From Brenneria salicis ATCC 15712 = DSM 30166 (GTDB taxonomy: Bacteria; Pseudomonadota; Gammaproteobacteria; Enterobacterales; Enterobacteriaceae), in contig NZ_QNRY01000013.1 in the NCBI RefSeq assembly GCF_003315515.1, forward strand, positions 1 through 64,000: a stretch of DNA of 64,000 bases, given 5' to 3'. Below, piece by piece: positions 3,469 through 62,191 of this stretch. Position 1 is the stretch's first letter; every line of letters begins with the position of its first letter. Position numbers and translations under genes: made by a program. The notes beneath the pieces were generated by a model. The model did not search any database and had not been told where the DNA came from. It saw nothing but the letters and a program-made list of their open reading frames with translations.

Positions 3469-5213
3469 GTGCACGGAATATTTGAGATGTTGCTCGCGGT
3501 ATTTGATCGCGCAGCCCTGATGCTGATTTGTCTTTTTTTGCTTACGCGCACGCGGCAATTTCGGCAACTGTTGCAAAAAGAACAGTACTCGCCCCGAGAG
3601 CGTGTCACCGTCACGGCTATTTTTTCGTTATTCGCGCTGTTTGGCACTTATTCCGGCATCAATGTTGAAGGTTCGCTGGTCAATGTGCGCATTATTGCGG
3701 TGATGTCCGGCGGTATTCTATTTGGGCCGTGGGTGGGGATAGCTACCGGGGTGATCGCTGGCGTCCATCGATATCTGATTGATATTGATGGCATTACATC
3801 CGTCCCTTGTCTAATCACCAGCATTATTGCCGGTGCGACCGCCGGTTATATTAATAAGAAAGTAAAAAAAAGCAGCAATGGAGCATGGGGATTCTGGGCG
3901 GCATGCTGTGCGAATCGCTTACCATGTTGCTGGTGGTTGCCTAGGCCACGCCGATTGAACTAGGGCTGGATATTGTTTCCAAAATCGCGGTGCCGATGAT
4001 TTTGGGTTCCGTCTGTATCGGGTTGATCGTGCTGCTGGTGCACAGTGTCGCCAATGAAAAAGAAGTGATAGCCGCGCGACAGGCAAAGCTCGCGCTGGAT
4101 ATCGCCCGGAAAACCTTGCCTTATTTCCGCAATATCAATAATGACTCCTTAGCATCCATCTGCAATATTATCCGCACGGAAATCAATGCCGATGCAGAAG
4201 CGATCACTAATACCCAACATATTCTGGCGTATGTGGGGGTCGGTGAGGAAAAATATCAGATTGAACATGATATCACCAGTTCGATGACGCAGCAGGCGAT
4301 GAAAGATGGCAAAATTATTATCAAAAATAATGATGAACAGCATCTGACGCCGCAAATCCATTCGATGATTATTATTCCGCTCTGGGAACATGGACAGGTA
4401 ACGGGAACGCTGAAAATCTATTATTGTCATGCGCACAAAATTACCTATTCATTGCGAGTGATGGCTGTGGGATTATCGCAAATTATGTCAACGCAGATTG
4501 AAGTTTCCCGAACGGAACAACCGCGTGATATGGCGAATAAAGCGGAACTACGCGCTTTGCAAAGTAAAATCAACCCGCATTTTCTCTTTAATGCGCTGAA
4601 TGCTATTTCTTCATCCATTCGAATAAATCCCGATACCGCGCGCCAATTGGTGATCAATTTATCCCGCTATTTGCGTTATAACCTGGAACTGAATGATGAC
4701 TCGCTGATTGATATTAAAAAAGAGCTCTATCAGATCCGTGACTATATCGCGATTGAGCAGGCCAGGTTTGGTTCAAAACTGACGGTTATCTACGATATTG
4801 ATGACGATCTGACCTACAAGATCCCCAGTCTGTTAATTCAGCCGTTGGTTGAAAATGCCATTGTGCATGGTATTCAGCCTTTTCGCGGTAAGGGGACGGT
4901 GGTGCTTTTAGTGAAAGATCTGGGCGAACGATTGCTGGTGGCGGTGAAAGATACCGGACATGGCATCAGCCAGGAGACGATGGACCGGGTAGCGAGGAAT
5001 GAAATGCCGGGCAATAAAATTGGCTTGCTGAATGTGCACCATCGGGTTCGTTTGCTTTACGGCGAGGGACTGCATATTCGTCGTCTCGAACCGGGAACAG
5101 AAATCTATTTTTATATTCCACGCGTCGATATATCGCAGACGGCGATGCCTGAAATGAGAAGCGGCGAACAAGCATTGGATTCGACAGCCAGTTTATCAGG
5201 AGGTGAACGATGA
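3469..5213 (+). pseudogene. ypdA: ypdA-like LytS-family sensor kinase, broken by a frameshift and an amber codon
   Basis: The two reading frames together follow E. coli YpdA (about 565 residues) from a GTG at 3469 ([19 protein letters not shown]) to the C-terminus. The N-terminal membrane part is in one frame. At the run of eight A at 3864-3871 the homologous frame moves by -1; one extra A would restore it. The continuing frame then meets TAG at 3942-3944, where E. coli has Trp or a similar residue. Homology resumes as [13 protein letters not shown] and runs on through the GAF region to the kinase motif [15 protein letters not shown] and the ATPase motifs. In E. coli this kinase responds to extracellular pyruvate and acts on YpdB. 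It overlaps ypdB by 4 bases. With two independent lesions the gene is most likely dead. The part from 3990 still encodes about 400 residues of GAF plus kinase without the membrane sensor. Confidence 0.88.
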
Positions 5214-5958
5214 AAGCCATTATTGTCGAGGATGAGTTTTTGGCTCAACAAGAATTGAGTTATCTCATCAAACAGCACAGTAATATCGACATTAACGCCA
5301 TCTTTGACGACGGATTGGATGTGCTGAAATATCTACAGCACAACAAGGTGGATGCGATTTTTCTGGATATTAATATTCCGTCGCTGGATGGTGTCTGGCT
5401 GGCGCAGAATATCAGCAAATATGTTCATAAGCCTTATATCATCTTTATAACGGCGTATAAGGAACATGCGGTTGAAGCGTTTGAAGTGGAAGCTTTTGAC
5501 TATATCCTTAAGCCTTATCATGAGTCTCGTATTGTGACTATGCTGCAAAAACTGGAAACGGCATGGCGGCAGCGGCAGTTACCCGCGGCCATCGAACCGG
5601 AAGATAGCATCAGCGCTCATCGGAGTGCTCAACAGACGATTAATCTGATGAAAGATGAACGTATTATCGTCACGGACATCAATAATATCTATTACGCCGC
5701 GGCGCAGGAAAAAGTCACGCTGGTTTATACCCGGCGGGAAACGTTCATCATGTCGATGAATATCACCGAGTTCTGTAACCGCTTACCTGAAACGTTTTTT
5801 TCCGTTGTCACCGTTCTTATTGCGTTAATCTGACTAAAATTTGTGAGATTGTACCCTGGTTTAACAATACTTATATTCTGCGCCTGAACGATTTGGATTT
5901 TGAAGTGCCGGTCAGCCGCAGCAAGGTAAAAGAATTCAGGTCATTGATGCGTCTTTAA
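5210..5958 (+). pseudogene. ypdB: ypdB-like LytTR response regulator, frameshifted
   Basis: Receiver domain (residues 1-120, phospho-acceptor in FLDINIPS) plus LytTR DNA-binding domain, as in E. coli YpdB (244 residues). The frame matches YpdB until NITEFCNRLPETFF. A run of seven T at 5795-5801 then shifts it, and the open frame stops at 5833. With one more T the other frame reads FRCHRSYCVNL, then PWFNNTYILRL and VPVSRSKVKEF, ending at 5958. That matches the LytTR C-terminus. The receiver is therefore intact, but about a quarter of the protein, including much of the DNA-binding domain, is out of frame. A single-base homopolymer error in the assembly could mimic this lesion. Confidence 0.87.
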
Positions 5959-5959
5959 C

Positions 5960-5990
5960 GGCATTTCATTCCGCATTTCCGGCATCTCAT
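5960..5990 (+). promoter_or_regulatory. YpdB operator (direct repeat) upstream of yhjX
   Basis: GGCATTTCAT at 5960-5969, an 11-base spacer, then GGCATCTCAT at 5981-5990. The published E. coli YpdB site upstream of yhjX is GGCATTTCAT-N11-GGCATTTCAT, so 19 of 20 positions and the spacing agree. It begins one base after the stop codon of the ypdB remnant and about 150 bases before yhjX. Confidence 0.85.
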
Positions 5991-6141
5991 TCCCGTTTCG
6001 AACAAACACTGTCAGCCCGCTTGTATACTGGCCTCAGCCCATAAGCTGACGGTGTTCCCGGTGACATTTTCTCCCTCGCCTCAGCTTATATTTTTCGTAT
6101 TCCGAGATCATCGGACTCAATATTGATGTAGGGGAAAACCC

Positions 6142-7362
6142 ATGAATGAGAAACCTGTAAACCGAGGTTTGATTGTCGTCGGCACGATCATTGCCCAGAT
6201 GGGACTGGGGACCATTTATACCTGGAGCCTGTTTAATCAACCGCTGGTGGATAAATTTGGCTGGTCGCTGGGTTCGGTGGCGACCACATTTTCCATCACC
6301 AGTTTCTGTCTGGCGCTGGCGACGCTTTTTGCCGGGAAATTTCAGGAACGGATCGGGATTCGCCGCCTGACACTGATCGCCGGGATCGTGCTGGGGTTAG
6401 GGCTGATGGCCAGCGCCGCCAGTTCTTCCCTGATGATGATCTATATTCTGATGTGCTTCGTCGTCGGCTTTGCCGATGGCACGGCCTACATCACCACGCT
6501 GTCCAACCTGATCAAATGGTTCCCGGAGCGGAAAGGGTTAATCGCCGGTATCTCGGTGGGGGCATTTGGTACGGGCAGCCTGCTCTTCAAGTACATTAAT
6601 AGCTTCCTGATTGCCGAAGTCGGCGTGTCGGCAGCCTTCCTCTACTGGGGTATTATCGTGATGGCGATGATTATCATCGGTAGCTTGCTGCTGAAAGAAC
6701 CTGCGGCGGCGCCGGTTAACAAGGCTGCCGATCAGAGACAAGCGCATGATTTCTCGCTGAGCGAGATGCTGGCAACCAAAGAATCCTATCTGCTGTTTAT
6801 TATTTTCTTCACCGCCTGTATGAGCGGGTTGTACCTGATTGGTATTGTGAAAGATATCGGCGTGCAGATGGCGGGGATGAATATGGAAACCGCGGCTAAT
6901 GCCGTATCCGCCATTGCGATATTCAACACCGTGGGCCGTATCGTGTTAGGCTCGCTTTCCGATAATGTCGGACGTTTGCGGGTGATCACATTTACCTTGT
7001 TTACGACCATCCTTGCCGTATCGGTGATGACCTTTATGCCGCTCAATCCGGTGACGTTCTTCATCTGCGTGAGCGCTATCGCTTTCTGTTTTGGCGGCAA
7101 TATCACGGTTCTCCCGGCCATCGTCGGCGACTTCTTCGGTCTGAAAAATCACAGCAAAAATTATGGCGTGATCTATCAGGGTTTCGGCATCGGCGCACTG
7201 TCCGGTTCGTTTATCGCGGCGCAACTGGGCGGTTTTCAGGCCACGTTTATGGCGATTATCATTATGTCGGCGATTTCTTTACTGATAACACTGTGGATTA
7301 AACCGCCGAAATACTATCCGTCTGCAACTTCACTTAACACCATGATGGCGCATGCGCGGTAA
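6142..7362 (+). CDS. yhjX: YhjX-like MFS transporter, oxalate/formate antiporter (OFA) family
   Basis: 406 residues with 12 predicted membrane segments. The N-terminus (GLIVVGTIIAQMGLGTIYTWSLF) and the loop YITTLSNLIKWFPERKGLIAG are typical of the OFA family of the major facilitator superfamily. E. coli YhjX is a pyruvate-induced inner-membrane protein whose expression depends on YpdA/YpdB. Here the gene follows the ypdAB remnant directly, and its promoter region holds a near-perfect YpdB direct repeat. A good AGGGGAA ribosome-binding site precedes the ATG. The exact substrate is not settled; pyruvate or a related monocarboxylate is likely. The ORF is intact although its expected activator is broken. 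Confidence 0.88.
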   Translation: MNEKPVNRGLIVVGTIIAQMGLGTIYTWSLFNQPLVDKFGWSLGSVATTFSITSFCLALATLFAGKFQERIGIRRLTLIAGIVLGLGLMASAASSSLMMIYILMCFVVGFADGTAYITTLSNLIKWFPERKGLIAGISVGAFGTGSLLFKYINSFLIAEVGVSAAFLYWGIIVMAMIIIGSLLLKEPAAAPVNKAADQRQAHDFSLSEMLATKESYLLFIIFFTACMSGLYLIGIVKDIGVQMAGMNMETAANAVSAIAIFNTVGRIVLGSLSDNVGRLRVITFTLFTTILAVSVMTFMPLNPVTFFICVSAIAFCFGGNITVLPAIVGDFFGLKNHSKNYGVIYQGFGIGALSGSFIAAQLGGFQATFMAIIIMSAISLLITLWIKPPKYYPSATSLNTMMAHAR

Positions 7363-8618: not shown

Positions 8619-8732
8619 AATGTCGATATAACAGATAATTCGCGTGAGGGAGTATGACCAGCAGCACGGATTTTCCTGATGCTACGCTCATGCGAGGTCA
8701 AATTGTTCATGATAAGCGCTAAGGATTTACGG

Positions 8733-9899
8733 ATGGCTAAAGGTAACAAGTTTCCCCTGACGTTTCATTTCTACCAGGATTCAACGACGGGCACCGACGT
8801 TGTGCGTTTAACCCCGCCAGATGTCATTTGCCATCGCAATTACTTTTATCAAAAATGTTTCAGCAATGATGGCAGTAAGCTGCTGTTTGGCGGCGCATTT
8901 GCTGGGCCGTGGAACTACTATCTGCTGGATCTGAACACGCGGGAAGCCCAGCAATTGACCGAAGGGAAGGGAGATAATACCTTCGGCGGTTTTCTGTCGC
9001 CGAATGATGATGCGCTGTATTATGTGAAGGATGGACGTAACCTGATGCGCGTCGATCTGGAAACGCTGGAAGAGAAAACCCTTTATCAGGTTCCTGATGA
9101 TTGGGTGGGCTACGGAACCTGGGTCGCGAACTCTGATTGCACCAAGATGGTGGGTATTGAAATCAGGAAAGAAGACTGGAAACCATTAACAGATTGGAAA
9201 AAATTTCAGGCATTCTACTTAACCAATCCGTGCTGCCGTCTGATTCGTGTTGATTTGACGACGGGCGAGGCGCGCACCATCCTCCAGGAAAATCAATGGC
9301 TTGGGCATCCGATCTACCGTCCGGGAGATGATAATACCGTTGCTTTCTGTCATGAAGGGCCACACGATCTGGTTGACGCCCGTATGTGGTTCATCAATGA
9401 AGACGGCAGCAACATGCGTAAAGTGAAAGAGCATGCGCAAGGCGAGAGTTGTACCCACGAATTCTGGGTGCCGGATGGTTCAGCGATGATCTACGTTTCT
9501 TATCATAAGGGAAATCCAAACCGTTATATTTGCAGCATTGACCCGGTCACCTTGCAAGATCGTCAACTGACGGCGATGCCCGCCTGTTCTCATCTGATGA
9601 GCAACTATGATGGGACATTACTGGTGGGCGACGGCTCAGATGCGCCGGTCGATGTACAGGATGACGGCGGCTACAAGATTGAAAACGATCCTTTCCTGTA
9701 TGTATTTAATATGCGGACCGGGAAGCAGCATCGTGTGGCGCAGCACAATACGTCCTGGAAAGTGCTGCAAGGCGACCGTCAGGTAACGCATCCGCATCCT
9801 TCTTTCACCCCGGACAATAAGCAAATTCTGTTTACCTCAGATGTGGATGGCAAACCCGCCCTATATCTGGCGACGATCCCTGAGTCAGTCTGGCAGTAA
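8733..9899 (+). CDS. ogl: Oligogalacturonate lyase (PL22)
   Basis: 388 residues, the family length, when started at the ATG at 8733 (MAKGNKFPLTFH). An upstream in-frame start at 8679 would add 18 residues not found in the family, and AAGGA lies just before 8733. The cytoplasmic beta-propeller lyase splits unsaturated and saturated digalacturonate into 5-keto-4-deoxyuronate and galacturonate, between TogMNAB import and the KdgF/KduI/KduD steps. The conserved stretches PPDVICHRNYFYQKC, EGPHDLVDARMWF, ESCTHEFWVPDG and VTHPHPSFTPDNK are present, including the histidines and glutamine used for Mn binding and catalysis. It is a single-gene unit with its own KdgR box and terminator. Confidence 0.97.
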   Translation: MAKGNKFPLTFHFYQDSTTGTDVVRLTPPDVICHRNYFYQKCFSNDGSKLLFGGAFAGPWNYYLLDLNTREAQQLTEGKGDNTFGGFLSPNDDALYYVKDGRNLMRVDLETLEEKTLYQVPDDWVGYGTWVANSDCTKMVGIEIRKEDWKPLTDWKKFQAFYLTNPCCRLIRVDLTTGEARTILQENQWLGHPIYRPGDDNTVAFCHEGPHDLVDARMWFINEDGSNMRKVKEHAQGESCTHEFWVPDGSAMIYVSYHKGNPNRYICSIDPVTLQDRQLTAMPACSHLMSNYDGTLLVGDGSDAPVDVQDDGGYKIENDPFLYVFNMRTGKQHRVAQHNTSWKVLQGDRQVTHPHPSFTPDNKQILFTSDVDGKPALYLATIPESVWQ

Positions 9900-9907
9900 T
9901 AATACTT

Positions 9908-9944
9908 AATAAACCGCGTCGTCACATTTATGGCGCGGTTTATT
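9908..9944 (+). terminator. Terminator after ogl
   Basis: Inverted repeat AATAAACCGCG ... CGCGGTTTATT beginning a few bases after the ogl stop, with a T-rich end. Confidence 0.7.
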
Positions 9945-10114
9945 ATCTATAAATTCATTAACCTATTAATTAAGAAAGTTCTGGCTCTGATATTTGTCAA
10001 AGTAACTTGATTATCGTCGTTGCTCCATTGCCATAATCAAAGTATTCCCTTTATACTAAAACCATTGTTCTATTTTTTTTAAAACAACAAAGACTGAGTA
10101 GGGTAACGACAGAG

Positions 10115-10906
10115 ATGGCTATAGCAGATTTAGATAAACAACCCGATTCCGTGTCGTCCGTTTTAAAGGTTTTTGGTATTTTGCAGGCATTAGGTGAAGA
10201 GCGGGAGATTGGCATTACCGAACTTTCTCAGCGTGTAATGATGTCTAAAAGTACCGTGTACCGGTTTTTACAGACGATGAAATCCCTGGGGTATGTCGCG
10301 CAGGAAGGCGAATCAGAGAAATATTCATTGACGCTGAAGTTGTTTGAGCTCGGCGCAAAGGCATTACAGAATGTCGATTTGATCCGTAGTGCGGATATAC
10401 AGATGCGCGAGCTTTCGGCGCTGACGCGGGAAACCATCCACCTTGGCGCGCTGGACGAAGACAGTATCGTTTATATCCACAAGATCGATTCAATGTATAA
10501 CTTGCGCATGTACTCGCGCATTGGGCGCCGTAATCCCTTATACAGTACGGCTATCGGTAAAGTGCTGCTTGCCTGGCGCGACAAAGACGAGGTGAATGAA
10601 ATTCTTTCCGCTGTCGAATTTACCCGTAGTACGCCGCATACCCTGAGTTCTGCTGATGCGCTGTTAACGCAGTTGGATCTGGTGCGCGAGCAAGGATACG
10701 GTGAAGATAATGAAGAGCAGGAAGAAGGATTGCGTTGCATCGCGGTGCCTGTTTTTGATCGCTTCGGCGTCGTTATCGCCGGCCTGAGCATTTCATTCCC
10801 GACGATCCGTTTTTCTGAAGAAAACAAACACGGATACGTTCAGATGTTGCATACCGCAGCCAGAAACATTTCTGAGCAGATGGGATATCACGATTATCCG
10901 TTCTGA
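10115..10906 (+). CDS. kdgR: Pectin-catabolism repressor KdgR (IclR family)
   Basis: 263 residues: winged helix-turn-helix at about residues 15-78 (ITELSQRVMMSKSTVYRFLQTMKSLGYV), then an IclR effector-binding domain with GRRNPLYSTAIGKVLLAW and a C-terminal GLSISFPTIRFSEE. It represses pectinase, transport and catabolic genes until the inducer 2-keto-3-deoxygluconate binds. Likely targets in this window are ogl, kdgM, the tog operon and kdgF, all with candidate boxes. The order kdgR-yebO near htpX is shared with E. coli. I saw no good KdgR box in front of kdgR itself. Confidence 0.97.
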   Translation: MAIADLDKQPDSVSSVLKVFGILQALGEEREIGITELSQRVMMSKSTVYRFLQTMKSLGYVAQEGESEKYSLTLKLFELGAKALQNVDLIRSADIQMRELSALTRETIHLGALDEDSIVYIHKIDSMYNLRMYSRIGRRNPLYSTAIGKVLLAWRDKDEVNEILSAVEFTRSTPHTLSSADALLTQLDLVREQGYGEDNEEQEEGLRCIAVPVFDRFGVVIAGLSISFPTIRFSEENKHGYVQMLHTAARNISEQMGYHDYPF

Positions 10907-22553: not shown

Positions 22554-23916
22554 TTACCGGTGCGTCAGTTTCGCATCTTCCTGCGAATCAAATACCGTTT
22601 TATCCGTTTGTTTGAGCAACTGACTGGTCACGGTGCCGGCGGTCATCGAACCGCTGACATTCAGCGTGGTGCGTCCCATATCAATCAAGGGTTCGATGGA
22701 AATCAGCAGGGCAACCAGCGTAATCGGTAATCCCATCGCCGGCAACACAATCAGGGCGGCAAACGTTGCGCCGCCGCCAACGCCGGCTACGCCGGCGGAA
22801 CTGATGGTAACAATCCCGACCAACGTGGCGATCCAGACCGGATCGAGCGGATTGATTCCTACCGTCGGCGCAACCATTCTGACCGATAGTGGTGCCGAAT
22901 GAGGCGGCAAAGCTGGCGATGGAATCAGGAACACCAATCCGGCGGGTTTGCGCTTCGATGCTTAAGGGAATAGTGGCGGCGCTGGAGCGGCTGGTGAAGG
23001 CGAACGTCAGCACCGGCCAGACTTTACGGAAGAACCGAGACGGATTGATTCCGGTGAAGGTCAGGAGCAGAGCATGTACGCCAAACATGATCGCCAGCCC
23101 CAGATAGGACGCCACCACAAAGCTGCCCAGTTTGAGAATATCTTGCAGATTGGAACTGGCGACCATTTTGGTCATTAGCGCCATCACCCCGTAAGGCGTT
23201 AACTTCATCACCAGACGAACCAGCTTCATTACCCAGGATTGCAGCGCATCAATTGCAACCAGCACGCGTTCGCCTTTCTCTTTGTCATCCTTCAGCAATT
23301 GCAACGCCGCGACACCGAGGAACGCCGCAAAAATAACCACGCTGATAATGGATGTGGGATTGGCTCCGGTTAATTCGAAGAATGGGTTTTTGGGAATGAA
23401 GGAGAGGATCAGTTGCGGTACGTTAAGATCGGTAACTTTGCCCGCATAATTATTTTCAATGGCGCTCAGCCGGGCGCTTTCCTGCGCGCCTTGTACCAAC
23501 CCGGCGGCAGTCAGGCCAAACAGGTTGGTGACGAAAACGCCGACCAGTGCCGCAATCAGGGTGGTGAGCAGCAGCGTGGAGAGCGTCAGCACGCTTATCT
23601 TGCCCAATGACGAGGCATTATGCAGTTTTGCCACCGAGTTGAGGATAGAAACGAAAACCAGCGGCATGACAATCATTTGCAGAAGTTGGACGTATCCATT
23701 GCCCACAATATTGAACCAGGCGATAGACTGGCCGATAATCCCGGTATTTTCACCATAGATAAAGTGCAATATCAGACCAAATGCGACCCCCGCCACCAGC
23801 CCCAGCAATACTTTTTTAGCCAGACTCCAGGACGGGTTTCTTGCGGCGTAACCCAATAAGATCATCAGGCTGACAAATGCCAATATATTGAATAGCAGCG
23901 GAAAATTCATCTCCAC
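22554..23916 (-). pseudogene. tcyP: tcyP (ydjN) cystine/dicarboxylate symporter, broken by a small deletion
   Basis: Reading from 23916, the frame follows the Na+-dependent L-cystine importer TcyP (about 463 residues) through [10 protein letters not shown], then leaves homology. The last part ([12 protein letters not shown] to SQEDAKLTH) continues in another frame ending at 22554. In intact TcyP about 13 codons separate the Asn of GQNGCA from the Met before VAPTVG. Here the two sites are merged at one copy of ATGGTTGCGCC (22867-22877 on the opposite strand). This is what a 38-bp deletion between two near-identical repeats would leave. The upstream frame still encodes a 411-residue product lacking the last transport helices and ending in unrelated residues, so transport is unlikely. 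Confidence 0.9.
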
Positions 23917-29515: not shown

Positions 29516-29570
29516 AATGCTTACCTATTTAGTCATTGTGAAATATCAAAAATAAAATCAAAGCAGGAAG

Positions 29571-29738
29571 TTAAGCGTTTTTTCCGGGTAGTACATCAAA
29601 CCCATCAGCCATTAAAGGTATTGGAGTGGTACGGCTATGCGCCACTTTATGAACGGTTGCGATATGCCGGCACAGCATATTAATCCACTGATCAAGCTGC
29701 GTTTTCTGACTGGTGTAGAAGCTTGCAAAAATACTCAT
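29571..29738 (-). pseudogene. pelW: N-terminal remnant of a PelW-like PL2 exopolygalacturonate lyase
   Basis: 55-residue ORF starting MSIFASFYTSQKTQLDQWIN, with GAAGG 9 bases upstream. It continues ATVHKVAHSRTTPIPLMADGFDVLPGK and stops. The MADGFD stretch and the position fit the start of the roughly 540-residue cytoplasmic lyase PelW, which heads the pelW-togMNAB cluster in Pectobacterium and Dickeya. This assignment is from memory of family sequences. Everything after about residue 53 is missing; togM starts only 55 bases later. The start, ribosome-binding site and KdgR box remain, so the stub is probably still translated as a leader ORF. Confidence 0.6.
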
Positions 29739-29778
29739 GGAGTACCTTCTTATGGAACTGCGTAACCAGTTCCTTATA

Positions 29779-29800
29779 AATAGAAACGCTGTTTTGAATG
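29779..29800 (-). promoter_or_regulatory. KdgR-box candidate upstream of the pelW remnant and togMNAB
   Basis: TAGAAACGCTGTTTTGAAT keeps the GAAA-N5-TTT core with a few mismatches to the consensus. A CRP-like half site, TGTGATCAAAGTCGGA, lies at 29848-29863. Together they would give the tog operon the usual pectin-induction and catabolite control. Confidence 0.6.
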
Positions 29801-61933: not shown

Positions 61934-62191
61934 ATGTTTTGTGTGATCTATCGAAGCACCAAACGTGACCAGACCTATCTTTATGTCGAAAAAAAAGACG
62001 ATTTTTCCCGCGTCCCGGAAGAATTGATGAAAAGTTTTGGTACGCCGCATTTAGCCATGTTATAGCCGCTGGATGGCAGTAAAAAACTGGCGAATGCTAA
62101 TATTGAAAAGGTAAAACAAGCGCTTAGGGAACAGGGCTTTTATCTACAGGTTCCGCCTCCGCCGGAAACGTTATTAAAGACGCTTTGGTAA
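61934..62191 (+). pseudogene. ycgL: ycgL with an in-frame amber codon
   Basis: The frame from the ATG at 61934 reads [20 protein letters not shown], then [17 protein letters not shown], then TAG (62063-62065). It continues in the same frame as [20 protein letters not shown] to PPPPETLLK and stops at 62189-62191. E. coli YcgL reads ...[29 protein letters not shown]... So there is one internal stop codon where Leu is expected, and the C-terminal tail may be shortened. It keeps the minC-ycgL-ycgM-ycgN order. Confidence 0.85.

Follow-up and report, generated by a model that had tools for sequence, protein, structure and literature searches.

The analyzed region of Brenneria salicis, a plant-associated bacterium, very probably captures the YpdA/YpdB (PyrS/PyrR) two-component system for pyruvate shortly after its loss, a loss specific to the lineage of a single Brenneria species. 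In the window, i.e., the entire 64,000-nucleotide stretch studied here (contig C13 of a 3.9 Mb draft assembly in 93 contigs), both regulatory genes are broken while the predicted YpdB operator and the adjoining target transporter gene yhjX are whole, and the lesions are absent from all eight aligned relatives; the first-pass annotation, which had described the pair as decaying with its operator and target preserved, is thus borne out. The sensor kinase gene ypdA has lost its frame and carries a nonsense codon, the regulator gene ypdB has lost the frame for half of its DNA-binding domain, and the operator and yhjX most likely linger for want of time to decay. Taken together, this looks like ordinary gene loss.

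The Broken Regulatory Genes

The lesions were defined by an alignment of nine rows, namely the window and eight relatives. The nearest relative compared is B. izbisi (G003, hereafter the sister), with which the window is collinear at 93–94% identity; the available portion of PMC9730526 gives B. salicis as the closest relative of B. izbisi, with an ANI of about 94.5%, and places other Brenneria below 87%. In this alignment all eight relatives remain in frame at all three lesion places, and the ypdA start codon is GTG in every one of the nine rows. The window copies of ypdA and ypdB are relics orthologous to open sister genes, with 95% and 96% protein identity, respectively, and an identical gene order. 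Across nine genomes of the genus, five have both ypdAB and yhjX and four have neither; ypdA and ypdB are open in G001, G003, G005 and G007, the other genomes of the genus with the cassette. The coordinates of the features discussed below are collected in Table 1.

Table 1. Features of the broken ypdAB pair with its operator and target, of two further broken genes in the window and of the BtsS/BtsR-type genes elsewhere in the genome; coordinates are those of the window unless prefixed by a locus.
Feature	Coordinates	Strand	Description
ypdA 5' relic	3469..3963	+	GTG start at 3469; membrane sensor 5TM-5TMR_LYT, profile 2-107 of 169; thereafter out of frame, with a stop at 3961-3963
A8 run, first ypdA frame loss	3864..3871	+	one base lost and one substitution relative to relatives
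In-frame TAG of ypdA (original frame)	3942..3944	+	TGG in 8/8 aligned relatives
ypdA 3' open stretch	3990..5213	+	GAF, His_kinase and HATPase_c; without the membrane sensor
ypdB truncated ORF	5210..5833	+	207 aa; receiver domain whole, LytTR profile 2-49 of 98 only
T7 run, ypdB frame loss	5795..5801	+	one base fewer than in 8/8 relatives
LytTR C-terminal half relic of ypdB, other frame	5797..5958	+	100% protein identity to sister residues 197-249
Predicted YpdB operator	5960..5990	+	GGCATTTCAT-N11-GGCATCTCAT; two 10-base direct repeats, 11 bases apart
Candidate -10 box of yhjX	6024..6029	+	TATACT; presumed promoter element, the same in every row except that of G030 (eight of nine)
yhjX	6142..7362	+	uninterrupted MFS transporter ORF of 406 aa
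TcyP-like transporter (named by eye)	22681-23916	-	38-base deletion relative to sister; ORF shortened from 466 to 411 aa
YcgL-like small gene (named by eye)	about 61934-62188	+	nonsense codon where the sister ORF has its codon 44
BtsS-type kinase, own genome	L045:1217-2935		572 aa, whole; adjoins an asd-like gene
BtsR-type regulator, own genome	L044:2190-2960		whole; adjoins an aroF-like gene (read from its translation)

The domains expected of the YpdA kinase (5TM-5TMR_LYT, GAF, His_kinase and HATPase_c) are all recognizable, but the frame loss and the TAG codon split them so that they no longer lie in one open frame; domain profiles recover a full His_kinase and most of HATPase_c in the 3' stretch. 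The initial reading of this gene as a -1 frameshift at the A run followed by an in-frame TAG stands as far as one base has been lost and the TAG is present. However, the change is not a plain contraction from nine to eight adenines: a G interrupts the run in every one of the eight relatives, a substitution accompanies the lost base, and an A9 run occurs in none of them, such that the proposal that reads with nine adenines would restore ypdA was mis-stated. In ypdB, by comparison, the -1 shift within the LytTR part lies exactly where it had been placed, with the two parts of that domain now in different frames. The equivalent place has eight thymines in the sister and G030 and an interrupted T stretch in the six other relatives. 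Long stretches of thymines at this place, which falls within the DNA-binding domain, could be prone to mutation.

The Operator and yhjX

The predicted operator begins a single base after the end of the ypdB relic, as first noted, and matches without mismatches the pattern (with Y at one place per box) compared with the letters given for the E. coli YpdB operator in the accessible part of PMC4847170. Allowing up to two mismatches, this is the single match in the whole genome, with no further copies; within the genus, the pattern occurs only in the five of nine genomes holding ypdAB and yhjX (with one mismatch in G007), and a backwards control pattern has no matches in the nine genomes. Hence, the match is not a product of chance. 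Downstream, yhjX is a full open reading frame, in keeping with its original description, whose product is recognized by the MFS_1 profile (E=1.2e-40) and is 96% identical to its sister orthologue. No clear -35 box accompanies the candidate -10 box by eye.

All 20 bases of the operator boxes are identical between the window and the sister, against 7 differences in the 151 bases of the rest of the intergenic region. The chance of seeing 20 of 20 bases unchanged in the absence of any constraint is 0.39. Over longer distances, the boxes are the same at 20/20 positions in a Pectobacterium (with 29/151 differences elsewhere) and differ at 1/20 in G007 and 2/20 in Brenneria sp. 4F2. Such long-distance conservation speaks for past use of the operator and not for its present use.

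Timing of the Loss

Several measures of sequence divergence bear on the age of the lesions. The dN/dS between window and sister is 0.059 for ypdA (577 codons), 0.040 for ypdB (248) and 0.098 for yhjX (405). Changes were further assigned to branches by parsimony with three alternative outgroups, G005, G001 and G007. With G005, the nonsynonymous to synonymous counts on the window branch are 14:51 for ypdA (a count that keeps stop codons and so includes the TAG), 5:16 for ypdB and 11:23 for yhjX, versus 7:22, 3:20 and 6:24, respectively, on the sister branch. For ypdA and ypdB combined, the window and sister branches have 18:48 versus 8:51 with G001 and 17:48 versus 9:56 with G007. The relaxation of the pair on the window branch relative to the sister branch is not significant with any of the outgroups (P=0.83 with G005, 0.078 with G001 and 0.124 with G007), and neither is that of yhjX (P=0.40, 0.22 and 0.77 in the same order). 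Given the lack of significant relaxation in these counts, the loss of ypdAB appears to have come late in the time since the split from the sister.

The nonsynonymous share of ypdA and ypdB is nevertheless higher on the window branch with all three outgroups, and a one-sided test with G001 gives P=0.047; the pair may possibly have spent some time free of constraint. Assuming a neutral ratio of 2–3, the pair would have been unconstrained over an estimated 2–12% of the window branch, with 95% upper bounds of 8–24% depending on the outgroup and the ratio; on a rough reckoning, three lesions are somewhat many for so short a time. A separate feature of these counts is the excess of synonymous changes in ypdA (3469-5209) on the window branch with G005 as outgroup (51 versus 22, P=0.0009), which is absent with G001 and G007; a possible source of it would be exchange involving the lineages of the sister and of G005. 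With the loss being recent, and with unchanged boxes expected at the above probability even without constraint, the survival of the operator says little about its current function, and yhjX has probably been an orphan for too short a time to have decayed.

Control of yhjX and the BtsS/BtsR-Type Genes

Since the sole known activator of yhjX is gone and its promoter is without a clear -35 box, the gene is most likely no longer induced by pyruvate and would likely be the next to decay. A different possibility, raised in the first-pass annotation, is that the operator and yhjX are retained as another LytTR regulator, e.g., BtsR, now drives the transporter, or that it has come under new control. 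A search for another intact ypdAB or btsSR in the genome gave a mixed answer: it has no second YpdB, the one LytTR match besides the ypdB pieces being of the BtsR type, but the BtsS- and BtsR-type genes are both whole, with full domains. Moreover, the BtsS-type kinase retains the residues R73, R100, C111 and S114 of the pyruvate pocket, which are offset by one from the E. coli BtsS pyruvate-binding residues Arg72, Arg99, Cys110 and Ser113 listed in the available text of PMC10653868. Two CstA-family transporter genes are also whole in this genome.

Against such a switch of control, the BtsR-type operator lies upstream of one of these CstA-family genes, whereas the region containing the yhjX promoter (5801-6142) has no BtsR box of the form ACC[AG]CT[CT]A, not even a single one. 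The scan for these boxes covered 16 of 20 CstA-family loci (the other four being pieces in G007), up to 500 bases upstream of the profile match, and the loci fall into two groups that we tentatively named btsT and cstA, the former name resting partly on the BtsR box itself; the repeats are found in 6/8 loci of the btsT group, that of the present genome included, with two lacking an exact match, and in 0/8 of the cstA group. Further, yjiY DNA with the BtsR site, from E. coli, was the no-binding control for YpdB in the part of PMC4847170 available to us, which indicates that the operators are not interchangeable in that direction. Finally, the unchanged boxes relative to the sister are expected in any case. 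Control of yhjX by another regulator is hence without support and we regard it as unlikely. The more specific version, in which yhjX has been taken over through the old operator, either by BtsR or by way of signaling from the kinase fragment, and an operator hand-over is caught in the act, is more improbable still. Under the favored reading of a recent loss, pyruvate sensing and uptake would now fall to the BtsS/BtsR-type genes and the two CstA-family transporters.

The genomic setting of these genes differs from that in E. coli, where btsS and btsR are adjacent. In the present genome they lie on different contigs, and in G001, G002, G005 and G007 they are likewise unlinked, being far apart by coordinates; the sister BtsS-type gene is situated between asd-like and glgB-like genes (names read from the translations).

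Authenticity of the Lesions and the Fate of the Remnants

The frame losses of both ypdA and ypdB are in or at homopolymer runs of a draft in 93 contigs. Thus, two of the three lesions sit at A or T runs, and either of them alone could be a read error, leaving the possibility that sequencing or assembly faults conceal genes that are intact in the organism. However, the TAG arose by substitution, and besides the lost base a substitution also separates the ypdA run from that of the relatives. A comparison of the 62 sister ORFs of at least 80 aa with the window also speaks against a general problem of quality: 49 are whole in the window, and among the 13 that are not, four are mid-gene breaks, namely ypdA, ypdB, a TcyP-like and a YcgL-like gene, the last two broken by a deletion and a nonsense codon, neither of which is a run error. 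The remaining nine are taken as five start-codon differences (the least sure of which has a stop at residue 53 of 535), two short doubtful ORFs and two in a stretch special to the sister. In the reverse direction, 50 of 62 window ORFs are whole in the sister. Among the other 12, six differ solely close to the start or at the final codons, the window copies of ypdA and of the TcyP-like gene account for two, and the last four are short, of doubtful status and interrupted by stops in the sister. This comparison reveals no clear breaks of recognizable genes in the sister stretch. The window lineage has thus broken genes by several types of mutation, and error as the explanation of the ypdAB lesions is very unlikely. 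Separately, at about 29563-29786 of the window the sister is ~1.5 kb longer, with a 560-aa ORF of which ~66 residues are kept in the window.

If the lesions are genuine, the runs might still allow some expression, either at a low level, should slippage occur at A8 and T7, or through on/off switching of ypdB by changes in run length. The A8 run has the form of a -1 slippery site, and the ypdB run is eight long in the sister and G030. Nevertheless, in the very frame that slippage would reach, translation would meet the TAG at 3942 further downstream and ypdA would not be rescued, while the lack of such a T run in six of the eight relatives indicates that it is not a conserved device; we give this reading even less credence than sequencing error. 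The least likely alternative is that the remaining pieces are functional, with a candidate soluble GAF-kinase fragment starting at 3990 and signaling to another regulator: the open stretch with its full His_kinase and most of HATPase_c is compatible with this, but its low divergence is common to ypdA, ypdB and yhjX alike, which fits recency.

Distribution and Relationship to Known Systems

To place the loss in a wider context, we surveyed 392 genomes of the family with cut-offs of E<=1e-50 for ypdB and E<=1e-80 for yhjX, counting broken genes with long pieces as present. Among the matches listed, ypdB is found in 193 genomes, yhjX in 192 and both in 191, i.e., the two co-occur in 191 of the 194 genomes with strong matches to either. 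Ranking ypdB by its best piece lets a broken copy with a long piece, such as that of the window, pass as whole, and the number of broken copies is accordingly a lower bound. Ten genomes had a ypdB match worse than 1e-100, of which eight were examined closer; the two left out, G329 and G388, share their genus with the open G262. At least five other genomes (G193, G347, G392, G403 and G415) have ypdB frame changes on one contig, though errors are possible in G193 and G403, which are 91% and 87% complete, respectively; in G074 and G342 ypdB is split over contigs, and in G262 it is open but divergent. The rest of the circuit is in differing states in these five: ypdA is broken too in G347, G392, G403 and G415, and is open over residues 1-554 in G193; yhjX is without stops in G193 and G392, has a stop in G403, is in two pieces by match count in G347, and has no match at the cut-off in G415 among the matches listed. 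In another genome, G034, ypdA is partial, ypdB absent and yhjX in pieces. Going by their gene content, these genomes look like stages in the loss of one circuit. Such repeated loss is consistent with the account in the available portion of PMC5552118, where BtsS is the sole kinase of this kind in most strains that have LytS-type kinases and YpdA is mostly an addition.

The window would then represent an early and clean stage in the loss of a one-target circuit, in which the regulator pair goes first and the target and its operator linger. With other genomes of the family at other stages, having both regulator and transporter broken or the transporter gone, the order in which a one-to-one circuit decays could be studied. 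It also offers a caution: the persistence of a whole operator and target next to a dead regulator does not have to mean new control. By title, our literature searches returned no paper on a ypdB pseudogene and nothing relevant on pseudogenes of the B. salicis genome.

The closest known counterpart is the E. coli YpdA/YpdB (PyrS/PyrR)–yhjX circuit, which, as presented in the accessible parts of PMC5552118 and PMC4847170, has in common with the window the domain order, an operator with 11-base spacing and the family of the target transporter; it differs in that both regulator genes are broken here. The second is BtsS/BtsR–btsT, likewise a LytS/LytTR pyruvate system, whose genes are whole here with a BtsR-type operator at a CstA-family gene; its operator (an ACC[AG]CT[CT]A-N13 repeat) and target are different, and its genes are on separate contigs here. 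BtsS-only species such as Salmonella, as described in the available text of PMC5552118, seem to represent the end state toward which the window lineage is headed, but here the relics, the operator and yhjX are still present. The gene order also varies between these organisms: ypdAB adjoins yhjX in the window, and the coordinates of the two are far apart in many genomes of the family among the matches listed. They are apart in E. coli as well. Beyond yhjX, the window continues at 8679-10906 with an oligogalacturonate-lyase-like gene followed by a KdgR-like regulator (both named by eye).
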